From: Pseudomonas oryzae
GTDB taxonomy: Bacteria; Pseudomonadota; Gammaproteobacteria; Pseudomonadales; Pseudomonadaceae
NCBI RefSeq assembly: GCF_900104805.1
Contig: NZ_LT629751.1
Coordinates: forward strand, 3,329,001 to 3,393,000
Length of the DNA: 64,000 nt
Reading direction: 5' to 3'
Numbering within the stretch: the stretch's first letter is position 1; each line of letters opens with the position of its first letter. Shown here in pieces: positions 38,901 to 60,924 of this stretch. The translations under genes were made by a program, and so were the position numbers. The notes beneath the pieces are model-generated. The model worked only from the letters and a program-made list of their open reading frames with translations. It did no database searches and was not told where the DNA came from.

Positions 38901-40355
38901 TCAGCCACCGATCCCCAGACACATGTATTTCAGCTCAAGGTAGTCGTCGATGCCGTACTTGGAGCCCTCGCGGCCGGTGCCGGACTCCTTGATGCCGCCG
39001 AACGGGGCGATCTCGGTGGAGATGATGCCCTCGTTGACGCCGACCATGCCGTACTCCAGCGCCTCGCCGACCCGCCAGGCGCGGCCCAGGTCGCGGGTGT
39101 ACAGGTAGGAGGCCAGGCCGAACTCGGTGTCGTTGGCCATGGCGATGGCTTCGGCCTCGGTCTGGAAGCGGAAGATCGGCGCCAGCGGGCCGAAGGTCTC
39201 GTCGCGCGCCACCAGCATCGCCGGGGTGACGTCGCCGAGCACGGTCGGCTCGAAGAAGCTGCCGCCCAGGGCGTGCGGCTTGCCGCCGGCGAGCACCTTG
39301 GCGCCCTTGGCCACCGCGTCGTCGATGTGCTCCTGGACCTTGAGCACCGCCTTGGCGTTGATCAGCGGGCCCTGCTGGGCGCCGTCCTCGTGGGCCGGGG
39401 CGACCTTGAGCGCATTGACCGCGGCGACCAGGCGCTTGGCGAACTCGTCGTAGACGCCGTCCTGCACCAGGATGCGGTTGGTGCACACGCAGGTCTGGCC
39501 GCTGTTGCGGTACTTGGAGGCCATGGCGCCGGCCACCGCGGCGTCGAGATCGGCGTCGTCGAAGACGATGAACGGGGCGTTGCCGCCCAGCTCCATGCTG
39601 ACCTTCTTCATGGTGTCTGCGCACTGCGCCATCAGCATCTTGCCGATGCCGGTGGAGCCGGTGAACGACAGCTTGCGCACGCTCGGGTTGCGGGTCAGCT
39701 CGCCGCCGATGGCGCGGGCGTTGCCGGTGACCACGTTGACCACCCCGGCCGGGATGCCGGCACGGCTTGCCAGTTCGGCCAGGGCCAGGGCCGACAGCGG
39801 GGTTTCCGAAGCCGGCTTGATGACGATGGTGCAGCCGGCGGCCAGTGCCGGGCCGGCCTTGCGGGTGATCATCGCGTTGGGGAAGTTCCACGGGGTGATC
39901 GCGGCGACCACGCCGATCGGCTGCTTGATCACCACCAGGCGGCGGCCCTGCTTGTCGTGCGGGATCACGTCGCCGTAGACGCGCTTGGCTTCCTCGGCGA
40001 ACCACTCGATGAAGCTGGCGCCGTAGGCAATCTCGCCGCGGCTCTCGGCCAGCGGCTTGCCCTGCTCCCAGCTGAGCAGGCGGGCCAGGTCTTCCTGGTT
40101 AGCCATCATCAGCTCGAACCACTTGCGCAGCAGCGCCGAGCGCTCCTTGGCGGTCTTCTCGCGCCAGGCCGGCAGGGCGGCCTCGGCGGCGGCGATGGCG
40201 CGCTCGGTTTCCGCGGCGCCCACGGAGGCGACGCTGCAGATGGGCGACAGGTCGGCCGGGTTGGTCACCGCGAAGGTGGCGCCGTCGTCGGCGTCGACCC
40301 ACTCCCCGCCGATGAAGGCCTGGGTGCGCAGCAGGGTGCTATCGGTCAGTTGCAT
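38901..40355 (-). CDS. gabD: NAD(P)-dependent succinate-semialdehyde dehydrogenase
   Basis: A 484-aa aldehyde dehydrogenase. Catalytic Glu is in MELGGNAPF and catalytic Cys in NSGQTCVCTNR (about residue 288), the exact context of GabD-type enzymes. It oxidises succinic semialdehyde to succinate. In this operon it directly follows hpaI, whose aldolase releases succinic semialdehyde and pyruvate, so it feeds the ring carbon into the TCA cycle. The start MQLTDSTLLRTQAFIGGEWV is typical. It is distinct from hpaE, the other dehydrogenase of the cluster. Confidence 0.92.
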   Translation of the reverse strand: MQLTDSTLLRTQAFIGGEWVDADDGATFAVTNPADLSPICSVASVGAAETERAIAAAEAALPAWREKTAKERSALLRKWFELMMANQEDLARLLSWEQGKPLAESRGEIAYGASFIEWFAEEAKRVYGDVIPHDKQGRRLVVIKQPIGVVAAITPWNFPNAMITRKAGPALAAGCTIVIKPASETPLSALALAELASRAGIPAGVVNVVTGNARAIGGELTRNPSVRKLSFTGSTGIGKMLMAQCADTMKKVSMELGGNAPFIVFDDADLDAAVAGAMASKYRNSGQTCVCTNRILVQDGVYDEFAKRLVAAVNALKVAPAHEDGAQQGPLINAKAVLKVQEHIDDAVAKGAKVLAGGKPHALGGSFFEPTVLGDVTPAMLVARDETFGPLAPIFRFQTEAEAIAMANDTEFGLASYLYTRDLGRAWRVGEALEYGMVGVNEGIISTEIAPFGGIKESGTGREGSKYGIDDYLELKYMCLGIGG

Positions 40356-40376: not shown

Positions 40377-41180
40377 TCAGTAGACGCTGCTGCCGGGCGC
40401 GGCCACGGCGGGCGCGCTGCCCTTGAAGCTGGCGGCGAGGTTCTTCAGCGAACGCATCAGCAGGCTGGTGTCGACGCCCACGGCGACGAACGAACAGCCC
40501 AGTTCCAGGTAGCGGCGGGCCAGCTTCTCGTCGGCACTGAGGATGCCGGCGGCCTTGCCGGCGGCGCGGATGCGCGCGATGGCGTCCTCGATGGCGGCCT
40601 GCACCTCCGGGTGGCCCGGGTTGCCGCGGTGGCCCATGGCCGCCGACAGGTCGGCCGGGCCGATGAACACGCCGTCGACGCCCTCGACCGCGGCGATGGC
40701 GTCGAGGTTCTCCAGGCCCTTGAGGCTCTCCACCTGAACCAGCAGGCACATCTGCGCGTCGGCCTCGGCCAGGTAGGTGGGGATGTTGTTCCAGCGCGAG
40801 GCGCGCGCCAGGGCGGCGCCGACGCCACGGATGCCCTTGGGCGGGTAGTGCATGGCGCGCACCAGCTCCTCGGCCTGCTCGGCGCGCTCGACCATCGGCA
40901 CCAGCAGGGTCTGCGCGCCGATGTCGAGCAGCTGCTTGATCAGCACCGCATCGCCGACCGGCGGACGGACGATCGGGTGGCTCGGGTAGGCCGCCACCGC
41001 CTGCAGCTGGCCGAGCAGCGCGCGCAGGTCGTTGGGCGCGTGCTCGGCGTCGAGCAGCAGCCAGTCGAAACCGGCGTTGGCCGCCAGCTCGGCGCAGTAC
41101 GGGTCGGCCAGGCCGACCCACAGGCCGATCTGCTGTTCGGCGCTCAGGCGCTGCTTGAAGGTGTTGACGGGCATCTGCAT
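40377..41180 (-). CDS. hpaI: 4-hydroxy-2-oxoheptanedioate aldolase
   Basis: A 267-aa class II (metal-dependent) HpcH/HpaI aldolase. Family motifs include [11 protein letters not shown] (about residues 39-49), [16 protein letters not shown] (metal-binding Glu, about 146-161) and [14 protein letters not shown] (about 168-181, metal-binding Asp). It splits 4-hydroxy-2-oxoheptanedioate to pyruvate and succinic semialdehyde. The length equals the E. coli enzyme. hpaH ends 10 bases upstream and gabD starts 21 bases downstream. Confidence 0.95.
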
Positions 41181-41190
41181 GGCGGTTTCC

Positions 41191-41994
41191 TCAGACGAAG
41201 CGGCAGGAGATGGAGCCCAGCATGTCATAGTCGACGTGGAAGGTATCGCCGGCCTTGGCCGCCACCGGACGGGTGAACGAGCCACCGAGGATGATCTGTC
41301 CCGGCTCCAGACTCACGCCGTAGGGGGCCAGCTTGTTGGCCAGCCAGGCCACGCCCTTGGCCGGGTGGTTGAGCACCGCGGCGGACACCCCGGACTCCTC
41401 GATCACGCCGTTGCGGTAGAGGATCGCCGGCACGCGGCGCAGGTCGACGTCGTGCGGACGGATGGCGCGGCCGCCGAGGACGATGCCGGCGTTGGCGGCG
41501 TTGTCGGAGATGGTGTCGAACACCTTGCGGGTGATGCCGGTTTCCGGGTCGACGTTGTGGATGCGCGCGTCGATGATCTCCAGCGCCGGGATCACGTACT
41601 CGGTGGCATCCAGCACGTCGAAGATGGTGCAGTTCGGGCCACTCAGCGGCTTGCCGAGGATGAACGCCAGCTCGACCTCGACGCGCGGCACGATGAAGCG
41701 GCTCATCGGGATGTCCGAGCCTTCCTCGAACTGCATGTCGTCGAGCAGCACGCCGTGGTCCGGCTCGGTGATGTTGGAGGAGACCTGCATGGCGCGCGAG
41801 GTCAGGCCGATCTTGTGGCCGATCATCTTGCGGCCGCCGGCGATCTTCTTCTCGACCCAGGCGCGCTGGATGGCGTAGGCGTCGGCGATGGTCATGTCCG
41901 GGTTCTCCAGGGAGAACTGGCGGATCTGCTCGCCGGTGCGCTCGGCGGTGTCGAGGCGCTCGGCGGCTTGCTGGATCAGTTGGGCGTCAAACAT
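41191..41994 (-). CDS. hpaH: 2-oxo-hept-4-ene-1,7-dioate hydratase
   Basis: A 267-aa hydratase of the fumarylacetoacetate-hydrolase-related 4-oxalocrotonate decarboxylase/hydratase family. Typical segments are [15 protein letters not shown] (about residues 56-70), [15 protein letters not shown] (about 100-114, metal-binding Glu) and SISCRF at the C-terminus. It adds water to 2-oxohept-4-ene-1,7-dioate, giving the substrate of HpaI. The ATG at 41994 gives the family length; the open frame upstream runs antisense-like through hpaF. Confidence 0.94.
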
Positions 41995-42026
41995 GAAGAC
42001 CTCGGAACTCTCGATTCTTGGAGCTT

Positions 42027-42434
42027 TCAATTCTTGGTGAACAGCGGGTGCAGGCTGCTGTGCTTGGCGTCGTAGACCTGCGCCGTGCTCTCGTCGATCT
42101 GCAGGGTCACGCCGATCGGGCGCTGCGCCAGCAGGCCGTCGAGGCGCGCGCGCAGCACCGCCAGCAGGCTGTCGCCGACCTGCTGGTGCACCGCCGCACT
42201 GCGGCCGGCACCCATGCGCAGGTTGGCGTAGAAGAAGCCGTACTCGCCCTGGCCATCGGCGATCGCCGCGTGCGCCGCCGGGTAGGCCAGCACGCGGGTG
42301 CCGCCGGTGGGGAACACCTGGCGGCCGTTCTCGTCGCGCTGGGTCAGCATGCAGTCGGCCAGCTCGCGGCACAGGCCTTTGATGTCGACGTCGCGCTCGA
42401 TGTCGGGGCTGTAGTAGAGGACCAGATGGGGCAT
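42027..42434 (-). CDS. hpaF: 5-carboxymethyl-2-hydroxymuconate delta-isomerase
   Basis: A 135-aa tautomerase-superfamily enzyme. The second residue is proline ([13 protein letters not shown]), which becomes the catalytic N-terminal Pro1 after methionine removal. The C-terminal part ([18 protein letters not shown]) matches CHMI-type isomerases. It isomerises 5-carboxymethyl-2-hydroxymuconate for decarboxylation by HpaG. It lies 10 bases downstream of hpaD. Confidence 0.92.
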
Positions 42435-42444
42435 GGCGCGCTCC

Positions 42445-43365
42445 TTACAGGCGGCTGGCGGCGATGAAGTCCGGATTGGAGGCCTGCGCCGCCGGGATGG
42501 TCGAGCCGTCCTGCGGGGTGACCGGGAACACTGCGTTGATCTGGCCGGTGCCGGAGGAGCCGAAGTACGGGGTCAGCACCTCGGCCTTGCCGTCGTACTT
42601 GGTCCAGCCGAGGGCGCCGAGCAGCATCGCGGTGTCGTGCATGAAGCCTTCGCCGTGGCCCTTGACCGCGTACTCCGGCAGCATGGTGCAGAAGGTGTCC
42701 CAGTCGCCCTCTTCCCACATCTTCACCACGCGATGGTCGAGGGTCTCGAGGAACGGGCTCCACACCTTGGTGGCGAAGTCCGGTGCCGTGCCGTTCTGGG
42801 CGAAGCGATGCGACAGCGAGCCGCTGGCGAGGAAGGCCACGGTGCCGTCGTAGTGCTCCTCGACCGCCTTGCGCATGGCCCAGCCCAGGCGCGCGCTGTC
42901 GGCCAGGTAGTGGGAGGTGCACAGCGCCGACACCGAGATCACCTTGAAGCGCTGGTCGGCGTTCATGTAGCGCATCGGCACCAGGGTGCCGTACTCCGGG
43001 CCGAGAGTGGTGGCGTCGTGGGCCATGGTCTCCACGCCCAGACGGTTGGCCTCCTCGGCCAGCAGGCGGCCCAGCTCCGGGTTGCCGGGGAACTCGTACT
43101 CCATGTTGCTGATGAAGTGCGGCAGCTCGTTGCTGGTGTACACGCCCTTGAAGTGCGGCGCGCAGTTGATGTGGTAGTTGGCGTTGACCAGCCAGTGGGT
43201 ATCGAACACCACGATGGTGTCGACGTTCAGCTCGCGGCAGCGGCGGGCGATCTCGATGTGGCCGTCGATGGCCGCCTGGCGGAAGCCGTGGCGCGGACCG
43301 GGCAGCTCGGACAGGTACATGGAGGGAACGTGGGTGATCTTGGCGGCCAGAGCGAGTTTGCCCAT
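42445..43365 (-). CDS. hpaD: 3,4-dihydroxyphenylacetate 2,3-dioxygenase
   Basis: A 306-aa ring-cleaving extradiol dioxygenase of the LigB superfamily. It begins MGKLALAAKITHVPSMYLSE, with the iron-ligand histidine in THVPSMY, and has a further conserved region FDTHWLVNANYHI (about residues 53-65) and the HDATTLGPEYGTLVPM segment. It opens the homoprotocatechuate ring by meta cleavage to 5-carboxymethyl-2-hydroxymuconate semialdehyde, the substrate of HpaE. The ATG at 43365 has an AAGGAG ribosome-binding site; the upstream extension to 43401 is not used. The spacer before it carries two hairpins. Confidence 0.95.
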   Translation of the reverse strand: MGKLALAAKITHVPSMYLSELPGPRHGFRQAAIDGHIEIARRCRELNVDTIVVFDTHWLVNANYHINCAPHFKGVYTSNELPHFISNMEYEFPGNPELGRLLAEEANRLGVETMAHDATTLGPEYGTLVPMRYMNADQRFKVISVSALCTSHYLADSARLGWAMRKAVEEHYDGTVAFLASGSLSHRFAQNGTAPDFATKVWSPFLETLDHRVVKMWEEGDWDTFCTMLPEYAVKGHGEGFMHDTAMLLGALGWTKYDGKAEVLTPYFGSSGTGQINAVFPVTPQDGSTIPAAQASNPDFIAASRL

Positions 43366-43433
43366 GACGATTCTCCTTGCGGCCTTATGCGCGCGGCGCA
43401 CGCGGCGATGATTCGGGTTGTGCAGGGCCGAAA

Positions 43434-43492
43434 ACGGGCAGTCCCCCGAGGGGAGCTGCCCGTTCCGACGCGGGCGACCGTCGGACGGTCGC
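43434..43492 (-). other. Two consecutive hairpins in the hpaE-hpaD spacer
   Basis: The first hairpin (43434-43463) pairs ACGGGCAG with CTGCCCGT and, inside, CCCC with GGGG. On the minus strand it is followed by TTTTC, so it may act as a partial terminator. The second (43474-43492) is a perfect 8-bp stem, GCGACCGT with ACGGTCGC, around CGG. They fill the 139-base gap between hpaE and hpaD, the only long gap in the front part of the operon. Confidence 0.5.
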
Positions 43493-43504
43493 TAGTGGCC
43501 TGCC

Positions 43505-44965
<1,461 letters not shown>

Positions 44966-44975
44966 TGTTCTACCC

Positions 44976-45755
44976 TCACTGCGCTGCTGCGGCGTTCTTG
45001 GCAGCGAAGAAATCGGCTTCGCTGACGATGGTGTTGACGAGGCGACCGACGCCCTCCACTTCCACGACCACTTCGTCGCCCGGGACCACGTCGGCCAGGC
45101 CTTCCGGAGTGCCGGTGGCGATCATGTCGCCCGGCTGCAGGGTCATGAACGCGGACAGGTATTCGATCAGGAAGGGGATGTCGAAGATCATGTCCGCGGT
45201 GGTGCCTTCCTGGCGCAGCTCGCCGTTGATCCAGGTGCGCAGCTTGAGGTTCTGCGGATCGGCGATCTGGCTGCGGTCGATGATGTACGGGCCGACCGGG
45301 GTGGTGCAGTCGCGGTTCTTCACCCGCAGGTTCGGCCGGTAGTAGTTCTCCAGGTAATCGCGGATGGCGTAGTCGTTGCACACGGTGTAGCCGGCGACGT
45401 ACTCCAGTGCGTCCTCGCGCTTGACGTTGCGCGCGGTCTTGCCGATCACCGCCACCAGCTCGCACTCGTAGTGCATGTAGGCGACGTTGTCCGGGCGCCA
45501 GGTGATCTGGCGGTGGCCGGTGTAGGTGTTCGGCGCCTTGATGAACACCAGCGGCTCGGTCGGCGCCTTGAACGCCAGCTCGGCGGCGTGGTCGGCGTAG
45601 TTCAGACCGAGGGCGAACATGCTGCCGGTGGCCGGCGGCAGCCACTCGACCTGGTCCTCGGCCAGCAGGGTGCCATCGACCAGACGGACGGCGTTGTTGT
45701 CCTCGACGGACACGTTGTGGACTTCGCCCTGGTAACGGATGCGTGCGTGTTTCAT
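44976..45755 (-). CDS. hpaG: HPA-degradation isomerase/decarboxylase, C-terminal-type subunit
   Basis: A 259-aa fumarylacetoacetate-hydrolase-fold protein corresponding to the C-terminal half of E. coli HpaG. Metal-site residues are in YMHYECELVAVIG (about residues 93-105), and the active-site region is GTPEGLADVVPGDEVVVEV (about 212-230). Together with the next gene it provides decarboxylation of 5-oxopent-3-ene-1,2,5-tricarboxylate and isomerisation of the product. In E. coli both halves are one protein; here they are two genes separated by 10 bases. Confidence 0.93.
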   Translation of the reverse strand: MKHARIRYQGEVHNVSVEDNNAVRLVDGTLLAEDQVEWLPPATGSMFALGLNYADHAAELAFKAPTEPLVFIKAPNTYTGHRQITWRPDNVAYMHYECELVAVIGKTARNVKREDALEYVAGYTVCNDYAIRDYLENYYRPNLRVKNRDCTTPVGPYIIDRSQIADPQNLKLRTWINGELRQEGTTADMIFDIPFLIEYLSAFMTLQPGDMIATGTPEGLADVVPGDEVVVEVEGVGRLVNTIVSEADFFAAKNAAAAQ

Positions 45756-45765
45756 GTCCGGCTCC

Positions 45766-46515
45766 TTATTCCGCGACCACGGTGTTGCTGAGGCGGCCTA
45801 CGCCTTCGATTTCGACTTCGACCAGGTCGCCGACCTTGAGGTCGACGCGGCCTTCCGGCACGCCGGTGATGATCAGGTCACCCGGCTCGAAGGTCATGAA
45901 CTGGCTGAGGAAGCTGATCAGCTCGGGGATCGAACGCACGAAGTTGGCGGTGCTGTTCTGCTGGCGGACTTCGCCGTTGACCAGCAGCCTGATCTCCAGG
46001 GCGTGCGGATCTTTGATGTCGGCGGCGTCGACCACCACCGGGCCGACCGGGCAGAAGGTATCGCGGCACTTGGCCTTGACCGCCGGGCGGTAGAAGCTGA
46101 CTTCCGGCAGGGTGACCTCGTTGACCGCGGTGTAGCCGCCGACGTAGTCCATGGCCTCGGCCTCGGAGACGCGGCTGGCGCGCTTGCCGATCACCACGCC
46201 CAGCGCAGGTCCCGCCTGGATGCTGTCGACGCCGGCCGGGAAGACGATGCTGCCTGCATGACCGACCACGGTGTTCGGGGTCTTGATGTACAGCACCGGG
46301 GTCTTCGGCGGGGTCTTGTACGGATCCTGGTTGAACTCGGCCAGCTTGCTGTCGAGCAGGCCCTGATAGTTCAGCGCGATGCCGAACACGGTACCGCTGA
46401 ACGGGGCTTTCCAGGCGTCAGGCTTGACGGCCTGGCCGTTCACGAGCGGCTGACCGTTGTCGTCAACCGTCGCCTCGAGGACCTTACCGTCCACTTCAAT
46501 CATCGCTCGGCGCAT
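45766..46515 (-). CDS. hpaG: HPA-degradation isomerase/decarboxylase, N-terminal-type subunit
   Basis: A 249-aa fumarylacetoacetate-hydrolase-fold paralogue of the preceding protein, corresponding to the N-terminal half of E. coli HpaG. Family segments include VFGIALNYQGLLDS, QAGPALGVVIGKRASRV (about 120-136) and GDLIITGVPEGRVDLKVGD (about 217-235). It is the first gene of the hpa operon. The start is chosen at the ATG at 46515 (MRRAMIEVDGKV) because GGAGAAAG sits 6 bases upstream; a GTG five codons earlier is the alternative. The promoter with overlapping palindromes lies about 100 bases upstream. Confidence 0.9.
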   Translation of the reverse strand: MRRAMIEVDGKVLEATVDDNGQPLVNGQAVKPDAWKAPFSGTVFGIALNYQGLLDSKLAEFNQDPYKTPPKTPVLYIKTPNTVVGHAGSIVFPAGVDSIQAGPALGVVIGKRASRVSEAEAMDYVGGYTAVNEVTLPEVSFYRPAVKAKCRDTFCPVGPVVVDAADIKDPHALEIRLLVNGEVRQQNSTANFVRSIPELISFLSQFMTFEPGDLIITGVPEGRVDLKVGDLVEVEIEGVGRLSNTVVAE

Positions 46516-46600
46516 GCCAGCTTTCTCCACAGACCAGTTGAGGGATCCGCCCGCGAGCGGGATCCGGTGCTTACCGTGACCGTGCCGTCGCTTGACGGCC

Positions 46601-46644
46601 GATTAACATGTGAACTTTATAATTAACATGTTAATCATGGTCAA
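46601..46644 (-). promoter_or_regulatory. hpaG operon promoter with two overlapping HpaR-type operators
   Basis: On the minus strand, a -35 box TTGACC (46639-46644), a 17-base spacer and a -10 box TATAAA (46616-46621) form a good sigma-70 promoter. The spacer contains the perfect 14-bp palindrome ATTAACATGTTAAT (46622-46635). A second, slightly imperfect copy TTAACATGTGAA (46603-46614) covers the expected start site near 46609. The two centres are exactly 20 bp apart, so both face the same side of the helix. Repression by a MarR-type dimer at both sites is the natural reading. Confidence 0.85.
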
Positions 46645-46715: not shown

Positions 46716-47624
46716 ATGCGGGATAACGAGCCGATTCCGAACATCAACATCGGCCAGGTCTACGACCAAAGATATGTCCACGAGGACGTCCACTACGAGG
46801 CGCTGGGCAAGCTGGCCGACTTCTTCGGCCGCAACATGCCGGTGCATCGCCACGACCGCTTCTTCCAGGTCCACTACGTGACCAGCGGCGCGGCGCGGGT
46901 GTACTTGGACGACCGCCAGTACAGCGAGAACGCTCCGCTGTTCTTCCTCACCCCGCCGACCATCCCGCACGCCTTCGTCACGCTACCGGACAGTGAAGGC
47001 CATGTACTGACCGTGCGCCAGCAGCTGGTCTGGCCACTGCTCGAGGCGCACCTCAACCAGGGCGGCGAGCCGCGCCTGGTGTCGCCGACCTGCGTGGCGC
47101 TCAACACGCTGGACGCCAGCTACGCCGGCGAGATCGAGCGCCTCAACCGCCTGTTCGAGATGCTCGCCGCCGAGTTCGCCGCCCATCTGCCGGGCCGCGA
47201 GGCCAGCCTGCAGGCGTTGACCCAGCTGATCTTCATCACCCTGCTGCGTCTGGCCGCCGAGCCGGTGAAGAACCAGCACGTGCGCCACGACAACCTGCAG
47301 ATCTTCCACCGCTTCAACGCGCTGATCGAGGACCACTACCGCGAGCACTGGCCGCTGTCGCGCTACGCCGAGGCGATGGGCGTCACCGAGGCGCGCCTCA
47401 ACGACATCTGCCGGCGCATCGCCGACCTGCCGTCCAAGCGCCTGGTCCATGAGCGCCTGATGCAGGAGGCGCGGCGCCTGCTGCTGTTCACCGCCGGCTC
47501 GGTCAACGAGATCGGCTACCAGCTCGGCTTCAAGGACCCGGCCTACTTCACCCGCTTCTTCAGCCGCGAGGCCGGCATGACCCCCAGCGAGTACCGCAGC
47601 CGCGAGGGCGAGCGCTCCGAGTGA
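46716..47624 (+). CDS. hpaA: AraC-family activator of 4-hydroxyphenylacetate catabolism (HpaA-like)
   Basis: A 302-aa regulator. The N-terminal cupin-like sensing domain includes RNMPVHRHDRFFQVHYVTSG (about residues 37-56). The C-terminal double helix-turn-helix includes LSRYAEAMGVTEARLNDIC (about 209-227) and VNEIGYQLGFKDPAYFTRFF (about 258-277). HpaA of E. coli responds to 4-hydroxyphenylacetate and activates the hydroxylase genes hpaBC; those genes are not in this window. Here hpaA is divergent from hpaG, with the operator region between them. A GGGGAG ribosome-binding site precedes the ATG. Confidence 0.9.
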   Translation: MRDNEPIPNINIGQVYDQRYVHEDVHYEALGKLADFFGRNMPVHRHDRFFQVHYVTSGAARVYLDDRQYSENAPLFFLTPPTIPHAFVTLPDSEGHVLTVRQQLVWPLLEAHLNQGGEPRLVSPTCVALNTLDASYAGEIERLNRLFEMLAAEFAAHLPGREASLQALTQLIFITLLRLAAEPVKNQHVRHDNLQIFHRFNALIEDHYREHWPLSRYAEAMGVTEARLNDICRRIADLPSKRLVHERLMQEARRLLLFTAGSVNEIGYQLGFKDPAYFTRFFSREAGMTPSEYRSREGERSE

Positions 47625-47685: not shown

Positions 47686-48930
47686 TTAGAGCAGCGGCAG
47701 GGTGTAGCTGATGATCACGCGGTTTTCGTCGACGTCGCGAGCAACGCGCGACTCGGCGCGGTAGGTCAAGTTGCGCAGGTGGAAGCGCAGCCCCTTCAGA
47801 GTGCCACCCTGCAGGGTGTACACCAGATCGGAGTCGCGTTCCCACTCCTTGCCGTCGTCGTAGGTCTTGGCCGCATTCTCGATGTTCGAGCCGCTGACGT
47901 AACGGGTCATGAAGGTCAGACCCGGAATGCCCAGCGAGGCGAAGTCATAGTCGTAGCGGGCCTGCCAGACATCCTCTTCCTGACGGGTGAAGGTCCAGAA
48001 GGTGGACAGGTTCTGGCTGTACGGGTCGCCACCGTTCATGAACGGGAACACGCCGTCGCCGGACAGGCTCTGGTAGCCCAGACCGAACTTGTGGGCACCG
48101 ACGCCCAGGGTGAACATGCCCTGGTACATGTCGTTGTCGAACTTGCCGGCCTTCTTGTCGCCATCGTCGCTGGTGTTGAAATAGCGCAGGTCGGTGGTCA
48201 GGCTCAGACCCTCGCCCAGCGGCAGCTTGTGCATCAGCCCGCCGAAGTGCTGCGCGTAGATGTCTTCCAGCTCGCCGTAGTAGTAGCTGGCGGTCAGTTG
48301 CGGATTGAAGGCGTAGGAACCACCCAGCAGATCGAAGTGAGCGCTCTCCGCGGCACCGAAACCTACCGACTGGCGATCGGAGGAGTCACGCAGGCTGACG
48401 TCTTCCAGACGGCCGGCATGCACGGTCAGGCCGGAGACTTCCTGGGAAGTCAGCAGACCGCCGGTGAAGGAGCTCGGCAGCAGGCGGGTGTTGTTGTAAG
48501 ACACGACCGGCAGGGTCGGCAGCAGGGTGCCCATGTGCAGGGTCGACTTGGAGATGCGCGCCTTGGCGGTCAGCCCCAGCTGGCTGTATTCGTCAACCGG
48601 GCTGCCGTCGGTTTCCAGCGGCAGCATGTTGCCGGCGGTGCGGCCGGGACCGGAGTCCAGCTTGACGCCCAGCAGGGCCAGCGCGTCGACGCCAACACCA
48701 ACGGTGCCTTCGGTGTAACCGGATTCGAACTTGCCGATGAAGCCCTGAGCCCAGGTCTCACCGTAGTTGGCACCGGTTCCCTCACGGAAATCACGGTTGA
48801 AGTACATGTTGCGCAGCTCGAGGGTAGCCTTGCTGTCCTCGACGAGAGCGGCCTGAGCAACGGAAGGAAGAGCAATACTTGCTGCAACGATGCTCAAAGC
48901 CAGCTTCGAGCGCTGAGAGATCCTGATCAT
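47686..48930 (-). CDS. OprD-family outer-membrane porin
   Basis: A 414-aa beta-barrel protein with a signal peptide (MIRISQRSKLALSIVAASIA ... SVAQA, cleaved about residue 27). OprD-family features include the N-terminal FVEDSKATLELRNMYFNRDF-like strand (here beginning LVEDSKAT, about residue 29). Typical closing segments are DVWQARYDYDFASLGIPGLT and a C-terminal aromatic-poor strand ending in Leu. OprD/OpdK-type channels are substrate-specific, mostly for amino acids or aromatic and other carboxylates. With an HpaR-type palindrome about 100 bases upstream and pathway genes on both sides, 4-hydroxyphenylacetate or homoprotocatechuate is the likely substrate. Confidence 0.88.
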   Translation of the reverse strand: MIRISQRSKLALSIVAASIALPSVAQAALVEDSKATLELRNMYFNRDFREGTGANYGETWAQGFIGKFESGYTEGTVGVGVDALALLGVKLDSGPGRTAGNMLPLETDGSPVDEYSQLGLTAKARISKSTLHMGTLLPTLPVVSYNNTRLLPSSFTGGLLTSQEVSGLTVHAGRLEDVSLRDSSDRQSVGFGAAESAHFDLLGGSYAFNPQLTASYYYGELEDIYAQHFGGLMHKLPLGEGLSLTTDLRYFNTSDDGDKKAGKFDNDMYQGMFTLGVGAHKFGLGYQSLSGDGVFPFMNGGDPYSQNLSTFWTFTRQEEDVWQARYDYDFASLGIPGLTFMTRYVSGSNIENAAKTYDDGKEWERDSDLVYTLQGGTLKGLRFHLRNLTYRAESRVARDVDENRVIISYTLPLL

Positions 48931-49025
48931 TCTTTTTATGTCTCCAGGGGACTTTTTATGATCGATCGAATAAAACCCGGCATCCGGCAGCGGTATGACG
49001 GGCAGGAGCGCCTTTTACCATCCGA

Positions 49026-49037
49026 TTAAGATGTTAA
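49026..49037. promoter_or_regulatory. HpaR-type palindrome in front of the porin gene
   Basis: TTAAGATGTTAA, flanked by GA on the left, is the hpaG operator core with one central change. It lies 96 bases before the porin ATG and overlaps a possible -35 box on the minus strand. Confidence 0.65.
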
Positions 49038-49210
49038 CAACCCTAGGATCGGCGGCAACGGCTTCGGCAACTCCCGGATCGACCTCGTCAAAAAATCGTA
49101 AAAACGCCGCGAGGTCAAGCCTGCCGACCTTTTTTCGCCACGCCAACCGGTCAGCCCCCCTCCTTTAGGATGACTTGACTCTACCCGTGCGCTGGCCGAG
49201 CATGACTGAG

Positions 49211-49222
49211 TTAACTTGTTAA
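49211..49222. promoter_or_regulatory. HpaR-type palindrome in the middle of the divergent region
   Basis: TTAACTTGTTAA within AGTTAACTTGTTAACG. The flanking bases extend the palindrome to GTTAAC ... GTTAAC. It lies about 185 bp from each of the two neighbouring sites, or slightly more on the TRAP side, so looping is conceivable. Confidence 0.65.
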
Positions 49223-49492
49223 CGAAATCCTCCTGCCGCCTGCACGTCTTAGCCCGAGCGCATTCGCCCGGCGTCAGCGCGACGATCCATCCGCAGGAGC
49301 GCCAAGATGAACCCGCCACCAACAATTCCTACCAAAGGCGCGGTCCAGCCTCTCCAGCTACGCTGGATCAGGCACGACGACTGCGGGCCTCGCCTCCCGC
49401 AGCAGGCTTCATCTGCGACCCAAAGTCGAGCGCACAACCGAGACCGCAGAAGTCCGACGGACCGCCTGCAGAAACTTGATGCAATCGCTCGA

Positions 49493-49504
49493 TTAACATG
49501 TTAC
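49493..49504. promoter_or_regulatory. HpaR-type palindrome in front of the TRAP operon
   Basis: TTAACATGTTAC within CGATTAACATGTTACT. It matches the hpaG operator in 11 of 12 core positions. It ends 32 bases before the dctP ATG, where it would overlap a promoter or the start of transcription. Confidence 0.7.
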
Positions 49505-49536
49505 TAATTTGGGTACAACAAAAACGGGAGACCCCC

Positions 49537-50559
49537 ATGCGTACCTTGAACCTCGTTGCCCTCGCTGTATCCCTCGGTGTCGCCGGCGTTGCCCAGGCGG
49601 CCGATAGCTACACCCTCAAGGTGGCTCACTTCCTGCCGTCCACCTCCAACGCCCAGGTCAACATCATCGAGCCTTGGTGCGAACAGCTGCGCCAGGAGTC
49701 CAACGACCGCATCAAGTGCCAGCTGTATCCGTCCATGCAGCTGGGCGGCACCCCCGCCAAGCTGGCCGACATGGCGCGCAACGGCGTGGCCGACATCGTC
49801 TGGACCGCTCCGGCCTACTCCGCCGGCAAGTTCCCGCGCGTCGAGGCGCTGGAGCTGCCGTTCATGCTGCCCTACGGCGGCAAGGCCGGTAACGACATCA
49901 TCTGGAAGTTCTACGAGCAGTACGCCAAGGACGACTTCAAGGGCTACAAGGTGCTCTCCGTGTTCGGCGACGGCGGCATGGACCTGCACACCCGCGGCAA
50001 GCAGGTGAAGACCCTTGCCGACCTGTCCGGCCTGAAGCTGCGCGCCTCCAGCCGTACTGCCGCCAAGACCATCGAAGCCCTCGGCGCCACCCCGGTGAGC
50101 ATGCCGCCGGCGCAGATGACCGAAGCCATCTCCAAGGGCGTGGTCGACGGTGCCCTGGCCTCCTGGGAAGTGGTCCCGGCCACCAAGCTGAACGAGGTCA
50201 CCCAGTACCACAGCGCCACCCCGGCCGGTCAGCCGGCGTTCGGCTACACCGTGCTGACCATGCTGATGAACCAGCAGAAGTTCAACAGCATGCCGAAGGA
50301 CCTGCAGGAAATCATCGATCGCAACAGCGGCCAGGCACTCAACGACCGCTTCGCCACCGCCTGGGACAAGGCGATGGACAGCGCGCGCAGCGCCACCCCG
50401 GCCGACGGCCTGGTGGCCATCGACGAGGCCGCCTACAAGGGCATGCAGGATGCCGCTGCCGGCGTCGCCGACGCCTGGATCAAGGAGACCAGCGAGAAGG
50501 GAATCGACGGCAAGGCGCTGGTTGAAGGCGCCCGCAATCTGTCCTCCGCTACCCGGTAA
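49537..50559 (+). CDS. dctP: TRAP transporter solute-binding protein
   Basis: A 340-aa periplasmic binding protein of the DctP family. It has a signal peptide (MRTLNLVALAVSLGVAGVAQA, cleaved about residue 22), then YTLKVAHFLPSTS. The usual carboxylate-binding arginine lies in LSGLKLRASSRTAAK (about residues 160-174). It captures an organic acid and hands it to DctQM. I start at the ATG at 49537 with a GGGAG ribosome-binding site; the frame opens earlier inside the palindrome at 49498. Context suggests 4-hydroxyphenylacetate or homoprotocatechuate as ligand. Confidence 0.92.
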   Translation: MRTLNLVALAVSLGVAGVAQAADSYTLKVAHFLPSTSNAQVNIIEPWCEQLRQESNDRIKCQLYPSMQLGGTPAKLADMARNGVADIVWTAPAYSAGKFPRVEALELPFMLPYGGKAGNDIIWKFYEQYAKDDFKGYKVLSVFGDGGMDLHTRGKQVKTLADLSGLKLRASSRTAAKTIEALGATPVSMPPAQMTEAISKGVVDGALASWEVVPATKLNEVTQYHSATPAGQPAFGYTVLTMLMNQQKFNSMPKDLQEIIDRNSGQALNDRFATAWDKAMDSARSATPADGLVAIDEAAYKGMQDAAAGVADAWIKETSEKGIDGKALVEGARNLSSATR

Positions 50560-50565
50560 TCCGTC

Positions 50566-51093
50566 ATGCAAGAGTCGCTCTCCTTCGAGAGCGGCCTGAC
50601 CGTGGAACACGGCGCCTGCCGCCGTGTCCTGCACCACGTCGCCCAGGGCTTCGCCCTGGCCGGCGGGGTGGTCATGCTGCTGCTCATCAACATGTCCCTG
50701 ATCTCCATCATCGGTCGCAAACTGTTCGCCACGCCGATCCGCGGCGATATCGAACTGATGGAGATCGGCGCATCGATCGCCATCGCCGCCTTCCTGCCGC
50801 TGTGCGAGCTGCGCGGTACGCACATCAAGGTCGATGCCTTCACCATGAAGCTGTCTTCGGGTGCCCTGCGCGTGCTCGACGGCTTCGCCCATCTGCTGTG
50901 TCTGCTCGCCGCGCTGCTGCTGGCCTGGCGCACCAGCCTGCAGATGCTCGACAACATGGAGTACGGCGACGTCTCCACCCTGCTGTCGATCCCGATGTGG
51001 ATCCCGCTGATGTGCATCGTGCCCAGCCTGATCCTGCTGGCGCTGTGTTCGCTGGCCCGTATCACCGACATGATCCGTGGAGGTCGCGCATGA
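50566..51093 (+). CDS. dctQ: TRAP transporter small membrane subunit
   Basis: A 175-aa DctQ-type protein with four membrane helices (about residues 26-48, 62-82, 102-121, 143-164). The family core is GRKLFATPIRGDIELMEIGA and CELRGTHIKVDAFT. It pairs with DctM to form the sodium-driven permease. It starts 6 bases after the dctP stop and overlaps the dctM start by 4 bases (ATGA). Confidence 0.9.
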   Translation: MQESLSFESGLTVEHGACRRVLHHVAQGFALAGGVVMLLLINMSLISIIGRKLFATPIRGDIELMEIGASIAIAAFLPLCELRGTHIKVDAFTMKLSSGALRVLDGFAHLLCLLAALLLAWRTSLQMLDNMEYGDVSTLLSIPMWIPLMCIVPSLILLALCSLARITDMIRGGRA

Positions 51094-52412
51094 GCGGTCT
51101 TTCGCTCGGCCTGATTGCCCTGGCCATCACCCTGACCCTGCTGGCGCTGCGCGTGCACATCGGCATCACCATGCTGATCGGCGGCGCGGCCTGCTTCTGG
51201 GCGGTCAACGACGGCGACCTGTCCTCGCTGCTGTTCACCCTCAACAACCTGGCCTACTCGCGGCTGTCCAACTACGACCTGGCGGTGATCCCGCTGTTCG
51301 TGCTGATGGGCCAGTTCGCCACCCACGGCGGCCTGTCACGCGCCATCTTCCGCTGTGCCGCCGCCTTCATCGGCCACTGGAAGGGTGGCCTGGGCATGTC
51401 GGCGATCGGCGCCTGCGCCGGCTTCGGCGCCATCTGCGGCTCCTCGCTGGCCACTGCGGCGACCATGAGCCACGTCGCCCTGCCCGAGCTGCGCCGCTAC
51501 AACTATTCCGGCCGCCTGGCCACCGCCACCGTGGCCTGCGGCGGCACCCTGGGCATCCTCATCCCGCCGTCGGTGCCGCTGATCATCTACGCGGTGCTGA
51601 CCCAGGAGTCGATCGCCAAGCTGTTCGTCGCCGCCGTCATCCCCGGCATCATCGCGGTGATCGGCTACATGGTCGTGCTGCGCATCATGGTCGCCCGCGA
51701 AGGCGGTCACGACCACGAACTGCAGAAGGCCAGCGCCGGCGAGCGGCTGAAGGCCTTCGTCAACGTGCTGCCGGTGGTCGGCGTGTTCCTCGTGGTGATC
51801 GTCGGCATCTACGGTGGCTGGGCCAACCCCACCGAGGCCGCCTCGATCGGCGCCGCGGCCTGCGGCATTCTCGCCGTGCTCCAGGGCGGCATGCGCTGGC
51901 AGGGCATCCGCACCAGCCTGCTCGGCACCGCCGAGACCACCGCGATGATCTTCCTCGTGCTGCTCGGCGCCGATCTGCTCAACTCCGGCCTGGCGCTGAC
52001 GCAGATGCCCAACGAGCTGGCCGAGTGGGTGAAGAACAGCGGTCTGGCGCCGATGCTGGTGCTGTTCGCCATCCTCGTGCTGTACCTGCTGCTCGGCTGC
52101 GTGATGGACTCGCTGGCGATGATCCTGCTGACCATCCCGATCTTCTATCCGGTGATCATGGGCCTGGACTTCTTCGGTCTGGACGCCAGCGAGAAGTCGA
52201 TCTGGTTCGGCATCCTCGCCCTGATGGTGGTGGAGATCGGCCTGGTGACGCCGCCACTGGGGATGAACCTGTTCATCGTCCAGCGCGCCGCCGGCAACGT
52301 ACCGCTGACCGAAACCGCCAAGGGCGTGATTCCGTTCCTCACCTCGGACATCCTGCGCATCATCCTGCTGGCGCTGTTCCCCGCAGTCACCCTGTGCCTG
52401 CTGCAGCTGTAA
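51090..52412 (+). CDS. dctM: TRAP transporter large permease subunit
   Basis: A 440-aa DctM-family permease with about twelve membrane segments. Typical motifs are VIPLFVLMGQFATHGGLSR (about residues 64-82), GFGAICGSSLATAATM (about 108-123) and GGTLGILIPPSVPLIIYAVL (about 147-166). It completes the dctPQM operon by a 4-base overlap with dctQ. A terminator follows directly. Confidence 0.94.
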   Translation: MSGLSLGLIALAITLTLLALRVHIGITMLIGGAACFWAVNDGDLSSLLFTLNNLAYSRLSNYDLAVIPLFVLMGQFATHGGLSRAIFRCAAAFIGHWKGGLGMSAIGACAGFGAICGSSLATAATMSHVALPELRRYNYSGRLATATVACGGTLGILIPPSVPLIIYAVLTQESIAKLFVAAVIPGIIAVIGYMVVLRIMVAREGGHDHELQKASAGERLKAFVNVLPVVGVFLVVIVGIYGGWANPTEAASIGAAACGILAVLQGGMRWQGIRTSLLGTAETTAMIFLVLLGADLLNSGLALTQMPNELAEWVKNSGLAPMLVLFAILVLYLLLGCVMDSLAMILLTIPIFYPVIMGLDFFGLDASEKSIWFGILALMVVEIGLVTPPLGMNLFIVQRAAGNVPLTETAKGVIPFLTSDILRIILLALFPAVTLCLLQL

Positions 52413-52472: not shown

Positions 52473-53681
52473 ATGTCCGCCGTCGCCAACCCCCAACGCC
52501 TGATCGTCCTGCTCGCCGCGCTGGTGGCCTTCGGCCCGCTGTCGATCGACATGTACCTGCCCAGCCTGCCGCTGATCGCCAGCGACCTCGCTGCCCCGCA
52601 GGCGCAGATCCAGCTGACCATCAGCGTGTTCCTCGCCGGCCTGTGCGCCGGCATGCTGTTCTATGGCCCGCTGTCCGACCGCTTCGGCCGGCGCCGGCTG
52701 CTGCTCGGCGGCATCGCCCTGTACATGCTGGCCAGCGTCGGCTGCATTCTCGCCGCCAAGGCCGAGCACCTGGTGTTCTGGCGCATCCTGCAAGCCCTCG
52801 GCGGCGCCGCCGCCTCGGTGCTGGCGCGGGCCATCGTCCGCGACCTGTTCCCGCTCAAGGACGCCGCGCGCGTGCTGTCGCTGATGCATCTGGTGACCAT
52901 GGTCGCCACCCTGATCGCCCCGCTGGTCGGCGGCTACCTGATCCTCATCGCCGGCTGGCGGGCGATCTTCGCCGTACTGCTGGCCTTCGCCGGCCTGTGC
53001 CTGCTGCTGGTGGCCTGGAAGATTCCCGAGACCCACCCGGCCGACAAGCGCGGCGCCTCGATCGCGGCCGCCTTCCGCGCCTATGGACACATCGCCCTGC
53101 AGCCCCAGGCGCTCGGCTACATCCTGTGCATGGGCCTGTCGTTCGGCGGCATGTTCGCCTTCATCACCGCCTCGCCGTTCGTCTACATCGAGTATTTCGG
53201 CATCAGCCCGCAGCACTACGCCTGGCTGTTCGCCCTCAACGTCGCCGGCATCATGGTCATGACCCTGCTCAATGCCCGCCTGGTCGGCCGTATCGGCCCG
53301 CAGCGCATGCTCACCTTCGGCGCCGCTGTCGCCGCACTGTCCAGCCTGGCCCTGGCGGTGCTGGGCTCGAGCGGCATCGGCGGCCTGCCCGCCATTGTCG
53401 TCTGCCTGGTGCTGTTCGTCAGCGTCACCGGCCTGCTCGGCGCCAACTGCGTGGCCAGCCTGCTGGCGCGCTTCCCCAGGCAGGCCGGCGCCGCCGCCGG
53501 CCTCGCCGTGGCCCTGCAGTTCGGCCTCGGCACCGCCTGCAGCGCGCTGGTCGGTGCCCTGCACGACGGCAGTCCGCTGCCGATGAGCCTGGTGGTCGGC
53601 GCTGCCGGCCTCGGCAGTCTGCTGGCACTGCTGCTGACCCGCATTCCGGAGCGCCCGGCTCCGGCCACTCCGGCCGCCTGA
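52473..53681 (+). CDS. Bcr/CflA-family drug efflux transporter
   Basis: A 402-aa major-facilitator protein with twelve predicted membrane helices. The Bcr/CflA signature LSIDMYLPSLPLIASDL lies at about residues 23-39, and the MFS loop motif GPLSDRFGRRRLLLGG at about 68-83. The family exports drugs such as bicyclomycin or chloramphenicol, or cysteine/sulfonamides. It lies behind the TRAP terminator, so it is probably expressed separately. No regulator gene is adjacent. Confidence 0.88.
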   Translation: MSAVANPQRLIVLLAALVAFGPLSIDMYLPSLPLIASDLAAPQAQIQLTISVFLAGLCAGMLFYGPLSDRFGRRRLLLGGIALYMLASVGCILAAKAEHLVFWRILQALGGAAASVLARAIVRDLFPLKDAARVLSLMHLVTMVATLIAPLVGGYLILIAGWRAIFAVLLAFAGLCLLLVAWKIPETHPADKRGASIAAAFRAYGHIALQPQALGYILCMGLSFGGMFAFITASPFVYIEYFGISPQHYAWLFALNVAGIMVMTLLNARLVGRIGPQRMLTFGAAVAALSSLALAVLGSSGIGGLPAIVVCLVLFVSVTGLLGANCVASLLARFPRQAGAAAGLAVALQFGLGTACSALVGALHDGSPLPMSLVVGAAGLGSLLALLLTRIPERPAPATPAA

Positions 53682-53752: not shown

Positions 53753-54721
53753 ATGTCCTTGCTCAAGAAGCTTCTGCCCTGCCGCCGCACCCTGCTGGCG
53801 GTCGCCACCAGTCTGGCCCTGTCAGGCAATGCCGCATGGGCCGCCGTCGGCGAACAGCCTAACGTGCGCCTGCTGCTGCTCGGCACCAAGGGCGGCCCGT
53901 CGCTGCTGCAGACCAAGAGCCTGCCGCAGTCCACCGTGCTGCTGGTGAACAACGACGCCTACCTGCTCGACGCCGGCTACGGCGCCAGCCTGCGCCTGGT
54001 CGAGGCCGGCATCCCGCTGCGCAACATCAAGGGTATCTTCATCACCCACCTGCACAGCGACCACGTGCTCGACTACCCGTCGGTGCTGATGAACGGCTGG
54101 GCGAGCGGCCTGAAGACGCCGATCAAGGTGTTCGGCCCGCAGGGCATCCAGGAAATGACCGACCACGCCTGGAAGACCTTCGACGTCGATATCCAGCTGC
54201 GCATCGTCGACGAGGGCAAGCCCGACCCGCGCCCGCTGGTCACCACCCAGACCATCCGCGAAGGCCTGGTCTATCAGGACCAGAACATGAAGGTCAGCGC
54301 CGTGTCGGTGCCGCATCCGCCGTTCGACAAGGGCCAGGCCTTCGCCTTCCGCTTCGAGGTCGGCGGCAAGAGCATCGTGCTCTCCGGCGACACCAACTAC
54401 TCCGCCGACCTGGCCAGGTTCGCCAGGGACGCCGACGTGTTCATCAGCGAGGTGGTGCACGTCGAGGGCGTGCAGCGCCTGTCCGAGCGCATCGGCAACG
54501 GCTCCAAGCTGGCCGAAGCGATCATCTCCCACCACGTCACCGCCGAGGACGTCGGCCGCATGGCCAGCGACGCCAAGGTCGGCAAGGTGGTGCTCAGCCA
54601 CTTCGTTCCCGCCGACGACCCCAGCCTGACCGCCGAGCACTGGCGCAGCGCCGTGGCCAAGACCTATTCCGGCGAGATCGTGGTCGGCCACGACGGCATG
54701 GAAATCCCGCTGCAGGACTGA
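53753..54721 (+). CDS. Exported metallo-beta-lactamase-fold hydrolase
   Basis: A 322-aa protein with a signal peptide (CRRTLLAVATSLALSGNAAWA, about residues 10-30). The zinc motif HLHSDH is at about residues 101-106. A second motif SGDTNYSADL (about 207-216) and a terminal histidine in SHHVTAED/SHFVPADD complete the site. It resembles tRNase Z- or arylsulfatase-like MBL proteins, but export to the periplasm points to another substrate. It follows the efflux gene by 71 bases. The substrate is unknown; a ring or sulfate ester linked to the catabolic island is only a guess. Confidence 0.8.
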   Translation: MSLLKKLLPCRRTLLAVATSLALSGNAAWAAVGEQPNVRLLLLGTKGGPSLLQTKSLPQSTVLLVNNDAYLLDAGYGASLRLVEAGIPLRNIKGIFITHLHSDHVLDYPSVLMNGWASGLKTPIKVFGPQGIQEMTDHAWKTFDVDIQLRIVDEGKPDPRPLVTTQTIREGLVYQDQNMKVSAVSVPHPPFDKGQAFAFRFEVGGKSIVLSGDTNYSADLARFARDADVFISEVVHVEGVQRLSERIGNGSKLAEAIISHHVTAEDVGRMASDAKVGKVVLSHFVPADDPSLTAEHWRSAVAKTYSGEIVVGHDGMEIPLQD

Positions 54722-57582: not shown

Positions 57583-57981
57583 TCACCTCCCCACCGTCGC
57601 CGTCAGCCGCCGCCAGGCGTAGTCGCCCCGACTACCGGGAGCACCGTTGCTCGCGCTGGCCTCGAGGCGAAACAGGCTGAACGCCGCGCCCGTCTCGTCC
57701 GTGTAGTCGCGCCGGCTGCAGGTGAGCGACACGCCGAAGTCGGCGAGATTGCCGCCGGCCATGCTCACGCTGCCGCTGGCACAGGCACCGGTGGCCCGCA
57801 CCCGGTTGATCCCCCACTCCAGCGCGGCGCGCGCGGCCTGGTAGGCACGCGCCTGCTGCAGGGCGAGATCGGCGTCGGCGCTCTGGTTGACCGCCATACG
57901 GCCCATGGTGACCACCACCAGGGCGATCACCACCATCAGGAAGACCGCCGCCACCAGGGCGAAACCGCGTTCATGGCGCAT
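57583..57981 (-). CDS. mshP: MSHA minor pilin-like protein MshP
   Basis: A 132-aa protein with a prepilin-like leader (MRHERG, cleavage before FALVAAVFLMVVIALVVV). The usual Glu5 is replaced by Ala, as in other PilX/GspK-type minor pilins that sit at a pilus tip. Two cysteines (ACASG and LTCSR) may form a disulfide. The start overlaps the 3' end of mshO by 11 bases. Confidence 0.8.
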   Translation of the reverse strand: MRHERGFALVAAVFLMVVIALVVVTMGRMAVNQSADADLALQQARAYQAARAALEWGINRVRATGACASGSVSMAGGNLADFGVSLTCSRRDYTDETGAAFSLFRLEASASNGAPGSRGDYAWRRLTATVGR

Positions 57982-58849
57982 TGTCGATATGGACCTGCTC
58001 AGTGAGTTCGACGCTCTCGCCCCCCAGGCTGAGGCGCAGGCGCAGACTGGCCAGCCCGGCGCGGCTGCCGATGCCGCGGCGGTATGCGAAGCCGCAGGCG
58101 GCCACGTCGCCGGCGACGGCCGCACTGTTCGCGCCGGACGGGATGCTCGCCGGCAGCGTGGCCAGCAACTGGCTGTATTCGTAGCGGCGCAGTTCGCCGC
58201 CGACGCAGCGGTAGCCGACCACCTTGTCGGCCAGATAGACCCGCCGCTGCGGCGAAGCGTAGGCGAAGCGGAAGTCGCCGGGCGTGCTCACCTGCAACAG
58301 GCTCTCGCCGGCCGGCGCGCCGCTCAGCGCCGTGAAGGATGTACCGCTCGGCGTGACCACGCCGGGATTGGCGTAGGCCCACAGGTTGCTGCCTGCCAGC
58401 GGCACGCCAGCGGACTCGGCGCCGACGTTGTACAGCACCAGCCAGCGCGCACCGCTCGGGTCGAGGCCCGACTCGAGCAGCTGGAAGGCATCGCAGCGCT
58501 GGCCGGTCGCGGTGCAGGTGGCGGCGGTGCCGCTGGCGAAGGCCAGCGCGTCGCTGCCGCTGCGATTGGGCCGGTAGCGACCGGCGCCGTGGATATTGAG
58601 CAGCTCCAGGGCCTGGCCGTCGGCACTCACCCGCAGCGAGTTGGGCACCGCCAGGCGGATGTCGCGCTGCATGCGGCTGAGCGCCAGCGCGCCGCGGTCG
58701 ACCAGTTCGGCGCGGCGACTCTGGTCGACGAAGCTGGTCAGCGGATGCGACAGCACACTGCCGATCATCACCGCGACCACCGCGCTGAGGGCGATCACCA
58801 GCACCAGCTCGACCAGGGTAAAACCGTACAGACGCCGGCGTTCAGTCAT
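57971..58849 (-). CDS. mshO: MSHA minor pilin-like protein MshO
   Basis: A 292-aa minor pilin. The prepilin leader MTERRRLYG precedes FTLVELVLVIALSAVVAVMI, with Glu5 present. A PulJ/PilW-like body follows. Cysteine pairs occur in the body (AATCTATGQRCD and YRCVGG). It overlaps mshD by 8 bases, so translation is coupled. Confidence 0.85.
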   Translation of the reverse strand: MTERRRLYGFTLVELVLVIALSAVVAVMIGSVLSHPLTSFVDQSRRAELVDRGALALSRMQRDIRLAVPNSLRVSADGQALELLNIHGAGRYRPNRSGSDALAFASGTAATCTATGQRCDAFQLLESGLDPSGARWLVLYNVGAESAGVPLAGSNLWAYANPGVVTPSGTSFTALSGAPAGESLLQVSTPGDFRFAYASPQRRVYLADKVVGYRCVGGELRRYEYSQLLATLPASIPSGANSAAVAGDVAACGFAYRRGIGSRAGLASLRLRLSLGGESVELTEQVHIDNAP

Positions 58850-59752: not shown

Positions 59753-59756
59753 GGAG

Positions 59757-60218: not shown

Positions 60219-60378
60219 GGGGACTGTCCTTGTCCGGGCAGAGCGGCCAGCTCCGAGCCGGCACTGAAGTTCATTTGCATCACTTGCTCCAAGATGCACA
60301 TGTTGCCGGAGCTTACTGGGATGGTAGAGCCAGCGGTAAAGAGAGCACTCAGCTCTCCCAAAATCTGGGGCATTCGAA

Positions 60379-60877: not shown

Positions 60878-60924
60878 GATTAAGCCCTTAAAAGGTTGAT
60901 TACTTGAGTTAGAGACAGAAAAAA

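Follow-up and report, generated by a model that had tools for sequence, protein, structure and literature searches.

Five copies of a palindrome found in the 64,000-nucleotide stretch of Pseudomonas oryzae DNA analysed here (hereafter the window) are very probably operators of the MarR-family repressor HpaR (38356-38820), through which, to judge from sequence comparison, uptake and catabolism would be silenced together and derepressed together, with the hydroxylase region and feaR as further predicted targets. As the HpaR palindrome is conserved in many Pseudomonas relatives at the hpa genes, at the porin gene and at the importer genes, uptake and breakdown are probably both governed by a single repressor. 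The preliminary description of this DNA had placed an outer-membrane porin, a TRAP transporter and the hpa operon in one HpaR regulon, a grouping that is strongly supported here by conservation, by the footprinted motif, by co-occurrence with hpaR and by paralogue controls, but that turns out to be too small. It is the size of the regulon that is new and not the mechanism, since HpaR, its palindrome and the repression of hpa genes are already known; among the matches listed in a literature search (open-licence papers, title and start of abstract) none dealt with HpaR control of a porin or a TRAP transporter. For this species, we infer binding, repression, inducer and substrate from comparison.

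Gene content of the window

The hpaR gene (38356-38820, minus strand; start placed at the ATG before ASTHKQDPSLTLALL) scores 177.9 bits against TIGR02337 (cut-off 121.2), encodes a protein that, across 131 residues, is 55% identical to an HpaR of E. coli, and is linked to the hpa ring-cleavage genes by reading frames, profiles and gene order in relatives. The reading frames on the same strand at 40377-46530 are those that we take, from the pathway and the gene order, to be hpaI, hpaH, hpaF, hpaD, hpaE, hpaG2 and hpaG1 (in the case of hpaE also from an annotated E. coli hpaE with 76.6% DNA identity). Between hpaI and hpaR sits a gene for a gabD-type NADP succinate-semialdehyde dehydrogenase (38901-40355, minus strand; NF008415 829.4 bits, cut-off 828), which, being inside the hpa operon, would share the regulation of the pathway supplying its substrate. 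This arrangement bears on a question raised in the available text of PMC12718150, namely by what means GabD is expressed in step with the 4-HPA operon.

On the other side of hpaG1 lie hpaA, encoding an AraC-family regulator (46716-47624, plus strand; TIGR02297 430.2 bits, cut-off 274.65), and an OprD-family porin gene (47686-48930, minus strand; PF03573 501.2 bits, gathering score 25), followed on the plus strand by dctP (49537-50559; PF03480), which encodes a TarP-like TRAP solute-binding protein whose nearest structures are aromatic-acid TRAP proteins, by dctQ (50566-51093; PF04290) and by dctM (51090-52412; PF06808, with TIGR00786 over its cut-off). An MFS transporter gene of the Bcr/CflA group (52473-53681, plus strand, by profile match) likely belongs to the TRAP operon, and the order dctPQM-bcr recurs in other loci (e.g. 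L032, L034, L040 and L043-L049). The minus strand of the window also encodes, at 57583-60407, a series of proteins whose N-termini look by eye like those of prepilins (e.g. GFTLVELVLVI); this is probably a gene cluster for a type IV pilus or for pseudopilins.

Position and rarity of the palindromes

Direct sequence matching confirmed that three cores stand where they had been described, all of them within the 606-bp intergenic region (48931-49536) that separates the divergent OprD porin gene and TRAP operon: a porin-proximal predicted operator TTAAGATGTTAA (49026-49037), a middle one TTAACTTGTTAA (49211-49222) and a dctP-proximal one TTAACATGTTAC (49493-49504). They match the two reference cores of the hpaG1-hpaA intergenic region, TTAACATGTGAA at 46603 and TTAACATGTTAA at 46623, and the spacings between them (185 bp from the first to the middle, 282 bp from the middle to the third) agree with the earlier estimate of about 185 to 280 bp. 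In the aligned regions of the same genus the dctP-proximal operator is identical in 7/7 and the middle one is present in 7/7 (as TTAACTTATTAA in L027), and the porin-proximal one is degenerate in L031 and L032.

Beyond these five, the window holds no place within one mismatch of TTAACATGTTAA, so that, at this threshold, the assertion that such cores occur nowhere else in it is upheld. One further TTAA-N4-TTAA, at 60880 (TTAAGCCCTTAA), was rejected on account of its misfit core (5.5 bits, as compared to at least 19.4 for the five). Within two mismatches of TTAANNTGTTAA the window yields 16 strand matches (palindromes being counted on both strands) against 1.27 expected, the largest number in 100 shuffles being 5, and none of 5000 dinucleotide shuffles of the 606-bp intergenic region gave a core with at most one mismatch. 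Furthermore, a matrix derived solely from the hpaG1 promoters of 12 genomes (24 sites, among them the pair of the window and no porin/TRAP site) placed 46623, 49026, 46603, 49211 and 49493, in this order, at ranks 1 to 5 of the window with 26.5 to 19.4 bits; the porin/TRAP sites thus rank second, fourth and fifth, and the sixth place follows 9 bits lower, at 10.3 bits.

Promoter architecture at hpaG1

By alignment, the hpaG1 promoter reads TTGACC-N17-TATAAA on the minus strand (-35 at 46639-46644, -10 at 46616-46621). The exact predicted operator O1 (TTAACATGTTAA, 46623-46634) falls inside the 17-bp promoter spacer, and O2 (TTAACATGTGAA, 46603-46614, one mismatch) begins one base downstream of the -10 element. 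This overlap of operators and promoter is kept in the compared rows, which comprise 30 hpaG1 promoters (that of the window and 29 from other loci; of the 36 loci matching hpaG1, the 7 at 30-41% identity were left out), several of the loci standing for the same species: TTGAC is found in 27/30 rows and TTGAT in 3/30, TATAAA or TATAAC in 28/30, and the O1-O2 distance amounts to 20 bp in 25 promoters and to 21 bp in 5. A sigma-70 consensus scan, which demands T at position 6 of the -10 element, listed no promoter at hpaG1, and it gave none in the porin-dctP region of the window either. Within the window, operator-promoter overlap is seen (by alignment) only at hpaG1; of 13 loci examined in other genera, 11 have TTGACA 15-16 bp ahead of the dctP-proximal operator, and L041 and L043 do not.

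Conservation of the porin-dctP region

The search with the DctP protein returned 53 loci from named genomes, 22 of which had a divergent OprD-type porin gene directly upstream and a measurable gap (L039 was excluded, its porin and dctP matches being separated by 33 bp, which left no measurable gap). All 22 gaps contain at least one core at no more than two mismatches. Counted over 23 porin-dctP regions (window included), there are 40 cores, as compared to a mean of 0.57 and a maximum of 3 in 300 shuffles, and 43 TTAA-N4-TTAA, as compared to a shuffle mean of 0.39 and a maximum of 4. In the window and its close relatives the gap measures about 600 bp and carries two or three sites; in other genera it measures 290-381 bp, and 16 of 17 counted regions carried two TTAA-N4-TTAA. 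In an alignment of 7 same-genus regions the palindromes belong to the best-conserved blocks. Reading frames that might reveal an overlooked small gene from the middle site to dctP were listed for the 7 regions as well, and by eye none is kept in all of them.

Paralogues provided a control. Among 119 family genomes DctP had 36 matches, and the 30 best of them were analysed; upstream sites (a core with at most two mismatches or a TTAA-N4-TTAA, within 700 bp upstream) accompany 22/22 matches with 67-100% identity and 0/8 of those with 59-62%.

Genome-wide distribution

The motif is rare in the 4.64-Mb source genome, the preliminary description having named its frequent occurrence elsewhere as evidence against a shared regulon: only 7 places lie within one mismatch of TTAACATGTTAA (none for the reversed-pattern control), namely the five window cores, one at the hpaB/luxR/MFS genes and one ahead of feaR. 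When two mismatches are allowed the number rises to 21, against 10 for the reversed control, and only close matches are therefore specific. The sixth place (G000:C1:3263452) is flanked by an MFS gene and a LuxR-type gene (by eye), after which comes hpaB, with hpaC behind it in the opposite orientation; HpaC passes its NCBIfam cut-off and HpaB stays slightly below (854.7, cut-off 885.2). The LuxR-type gene (L016:6162-6911, by eye, no NCBIfam match at 1e-20) is situated directly upstream of hpaB, and its intergenic region contains a predicted HpaR site. The seventh place (3285626) is upstream of feaR (346.6 bits, cut-off 199), whose neighbours are genes for an amino-acid permease and an FAD oxidoreductase. 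FeaR is a regulator of the amine oxidation that feeds 4-hydroxyphenylacetate.

The places that appear in the source genome only at two mismatches number 14. One of them, upstream of hpaC at 3267216 (TGAACCTGTTAA), is a weaker site that was met again in four stretches from the same genus (L136, L146, L149 and L150). Five places with TTAACAAGTTGA / TCAACTTGTTAA were rejected: they belong to a repeat, whose three compared copies share 98.9-99.7% identity across some 1.6 kb or more, and we take the sequence for an rRNA leader (boxA) and not for an HpaR site. The two places with TTAACCTGTCAA lie 80 bp from two of these. We regard the place at 1828211 (L013:1501-1512; TTAACTTATTAA, 18.9 bits), upstream of an EamA-like transporter gene (by eye), as a weak candidate for an additional HpaR target. 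The place at 1710171 (TTAAAGTGTTAA, 15.7 bits) overlaps reading frames, and the others are at 838004, 947633, 2706162 and 4486507.

Distribution across the family

Eight genomes of the same genus contain 56 places with at most one mismatch (reversed control 4), of which 54 could be assigned (from annotated stretches and from hpaA and dctP positions) to hpaG1 (16), porin/dctP (21), the hpaBC/MFS region (8), feaR (6) and a second dctP or a metallo-hydrolase gene (3), both of the remaining ones being in G001. Such palindromes were seen upstream of the second DctP copy (88% identity) at L138:2002 and L151:2905 and, at L144:2446, upstream of a gene for a metallo-hydrolase like that of the window at 53753-54721.

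In the 119 family genomes, HpaR is present in 28, a perfect palindrome in 20 and both in 18 (Fisher p 2e-12, with relatedness ignored); as the genomes are related and the sample sets overlap, these counts are not independent. In the 18 genomes with both, all 23 perfect places are at hpaG1, at feaR or in the hpaB region of the source genome (the hpaG1 assignment in six same-genus genomes was made from the adjoining hpaA). On the other hand, 10/28 HpaR genomes have no perfect palindrome. Two of these ten, which have an HpaR-profile match and no HpaA (G012 and G086), show no palindrome in 19.5 kb around the HpaR-profile gene, which suggests that some HpaR-profile proteins may do something else; the only hpa query matches near that gene are a partial hpaI-like one (G012) and a weak hpaC-like one (G086). 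The two genomes with a palindrome and without HpaR (G034 and G068) have 37% and 44% GC at the respective places and no query-protein relative there, and we thus take their perfect palindromes for chance occurrences.

Identity of the regulator

The palindrome equals the published HpaR operator TTAA-N4-TTAA (exactly at 46623, with one mismatch at 46603). According to the available text of PMC7180172, DNase I footprinting at the hpaG1 promoter of Y. pseudotuberculosis placed HpaR on TTAA-XXXX-TTAA, a palindrome said there to be similar to that of E. coli W. Our system shares with those of E. coli W and Y. pseudotuberculosis, as portrayed in that text, the MarR family of the regulator, the palindrome and the presence of two sites at the hpaG1 promoter, and it differs in the placing of these sites (20 bp apart here, at -189 and -8 in Yersinia) and in the reach of the regulon, which there comprises the hpa-meta operon (and T6SS4 in Yersinia), whereas here the OprD porin, the TRAP operon, feaR and hpaB/MFS are predicted members as well. 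The same source text reports that in Y. pseudotuberculosis HpaR acts on another promoter as an activator, by way of a different site that is imperfect, so that a site by itself does not give the sign of regulation. Within a 13-kb hpa region of E. coli we found TTAACATATTAA between hpaR and hpaG and one more TTAA-N4-TTAA inside tsr, and none upstream of hpaB.

That the palindromes are instead bound by the AraC-type activator HpaA seems very improbable to us. The adjacency of hpaA to the hpaG1 sites would suit such a reading, as would the occurrence of HpaA in 29 of the 119 family genomes; 26 of these also have HpaR, and co-occurrence alone hence hardly separates the two regulators. What does separate them is that HpaR was footprinted on the palindrome in Y. 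pseudotuberculosis, in which no HpaA homologue was identified (PMC7180172, available text), and that the upstream region of E. coli hpaBC, named in the same text as HpaA-controlled, lacks the palindrome. Moreover, two of the three genomes with HpaA and without HpaR (G018, G034 and G046) are devoid of a perfect palindrome, and the two perfect palindromes of G034 (37% GC there) are hundreds of kb away from hpaA. Quite improbable, too, is control of the porin and TRAP genes by another regulator (a second MarR or a GntR protein), the likeness of their sites to the hpa operators being convergent: the sites track close relatives of dctP and are absent in 8/8 paralogues, a matrix made from hpaG1 sites alone finds them, and hpaA and hpaR are the only regulators among the scanned window genes around the pair. 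This possibility draws on the further MarR-type proteins of the genome (three TIGR02337 matches, two of them below the cut-off) and on the scope of the neighbour search, which covered relatives of window proteins and a few proteins from two extra loci, and to which unrelated regulators are invisible. As for chance matches in an AT-rich intergenic patch, low-GC genomes (G034 and G068) do yield them, but we consider this explanation negligible in view of the 0/5000 shuffles and of the conservation of the sites across genera.

Under the favoured reading, in which HpaR is the protein that reads the sites, the arrangement of the three porin-TRAP operators calls for comment, since the middle one had been suggested to support looping. 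Three operators lie within 480 bp, and the first and middle sites keep a rather constant distance (183-188 bp in those 5 same-genus regions that have both), which would suit a middle site acting through a DNA loop that joins the porin-proximal and the dctP-proximal operator. From the middle to the third site, on the other hand, the 7 same-genus regions (window included) measure 270, 271, 278, 280, 282, 283 and 316 bp, with no steady helical phase, and the porin-proximal site is degenerate in 2/7. In other genera, moreover, the rows inspected place one of the two sites toward each gene, which suits separate promoters. Looping therefore appears unlikely, and separate operators for separate promoters fit better than a fixed loop.

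The TRAP transporter and its likely cargo

The structural model of DctP (mean pLDDT 90.2, built with 33 sequences) was compared to known structures, and the best 12 rows superpose over almost the whole protein (Z 39-45, rmsd 1.4-2.2, 26-38% identity); their entries are titled as aromatic-acid specific or as complexes with caffeate, coumarate, ferulate, cinnamate or 4-hydroxyphenylacetate, although in row 8 the ligand is incomplete in the title and row 11 is an open form with no ligand named. The window DctP thus has its fold in common with TarP-type TRAP proteins (PDB 5i7i, 5i5p, 7nrr and 7nqg); 7nqg, the sole listed entry named with 4-hydroxyphenylacetate, is more distant from it (26% identity). 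The nearest structures favour reading the dctPQM of the preliminary description as an aromatic-acid (TarP-like) TRAP transporter. A shared fold does not fix the ligand, but taken in conjunction with the operators it points to 4-hydroxyphenylacetate, or something closely related, as what is likely carried. A likely substrate class is thereby proposed for the porin and the TRAP transporter, for both of which family membership had been the only clue. The E. coli 4-hydroxyphenylacetate permease HpaX is likewise encoded by an uptake gene placed with the hpa genes, with the difference that HpaX is a single permease inside the hpa cluster, whereas here the porin and TRAP genes form a separate divergent pair with predicted operators of its own.

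Proposed regulation

We propose that, when no substrate is present, dimeric HpaR would occupy the hpaG1 promoter (one operator in the -35/-10 spacer and one just after the -10 element) and thus silence the hpa ring-cleavage operon, including hpaR itself at the 3' end of the operon, and that HpaR bound to the three porin-TRAP operators would silence uptake across the outer and the inner membrane. Accumulation of 4-hydroxyphenylacetate or of a pathway compound would then release HpaR, and uptake and catabolism would be derepressed together. In the available text of PMC12718150, HpaR is released by pathway intermediates, and in that of PMC3053370 its inducers are 4-HPA or homoprotocatechuate. Through the two further operators, the hydroxylase region (hpaB, the LuxR-type gene and the MFS gene) and feaR may come under HpaR too. 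The broader reading, in which HpaR acts as a master switch of the whole aromatic route (the feaR feeder, the hydroxylase, the porin, the TarP-like importer and ring cleavage), appears to us reasonably probable; in some species it includes the second DctP copy, and the arrangement is conserved over several Pseudomonadaceae genera. The outcome is a concrete regulon prediction with named targets, which also suggests a link between the catabolism of 4-hydroxyphenylacetate on the one side and uptake and a feeder pathway (FeaR) on the other.

Further occurrences of the palindrome were encountered outside these loci. At L167:4647 and L168:4784 a TTAACTTGTTAA core lies between hpaA and a directly following Bcr/CflA-type MFS gene, which suggests that this MFS gene is in the regulon. 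The same kind of palindrome precedes TRAP genes in a Lautropia genome and in two Azospirillum genomes. Perfect palindromes lie near the TRAP genes of the latter two (L062:11921 and L062:14130; L065:11890 and L065:14132), with no HpaR match found at 1e-10 in these two Azospirillum stretches; in L062 both palindromes come just after TTGACT, as in the Pseudomonas hpaG1 promoter.
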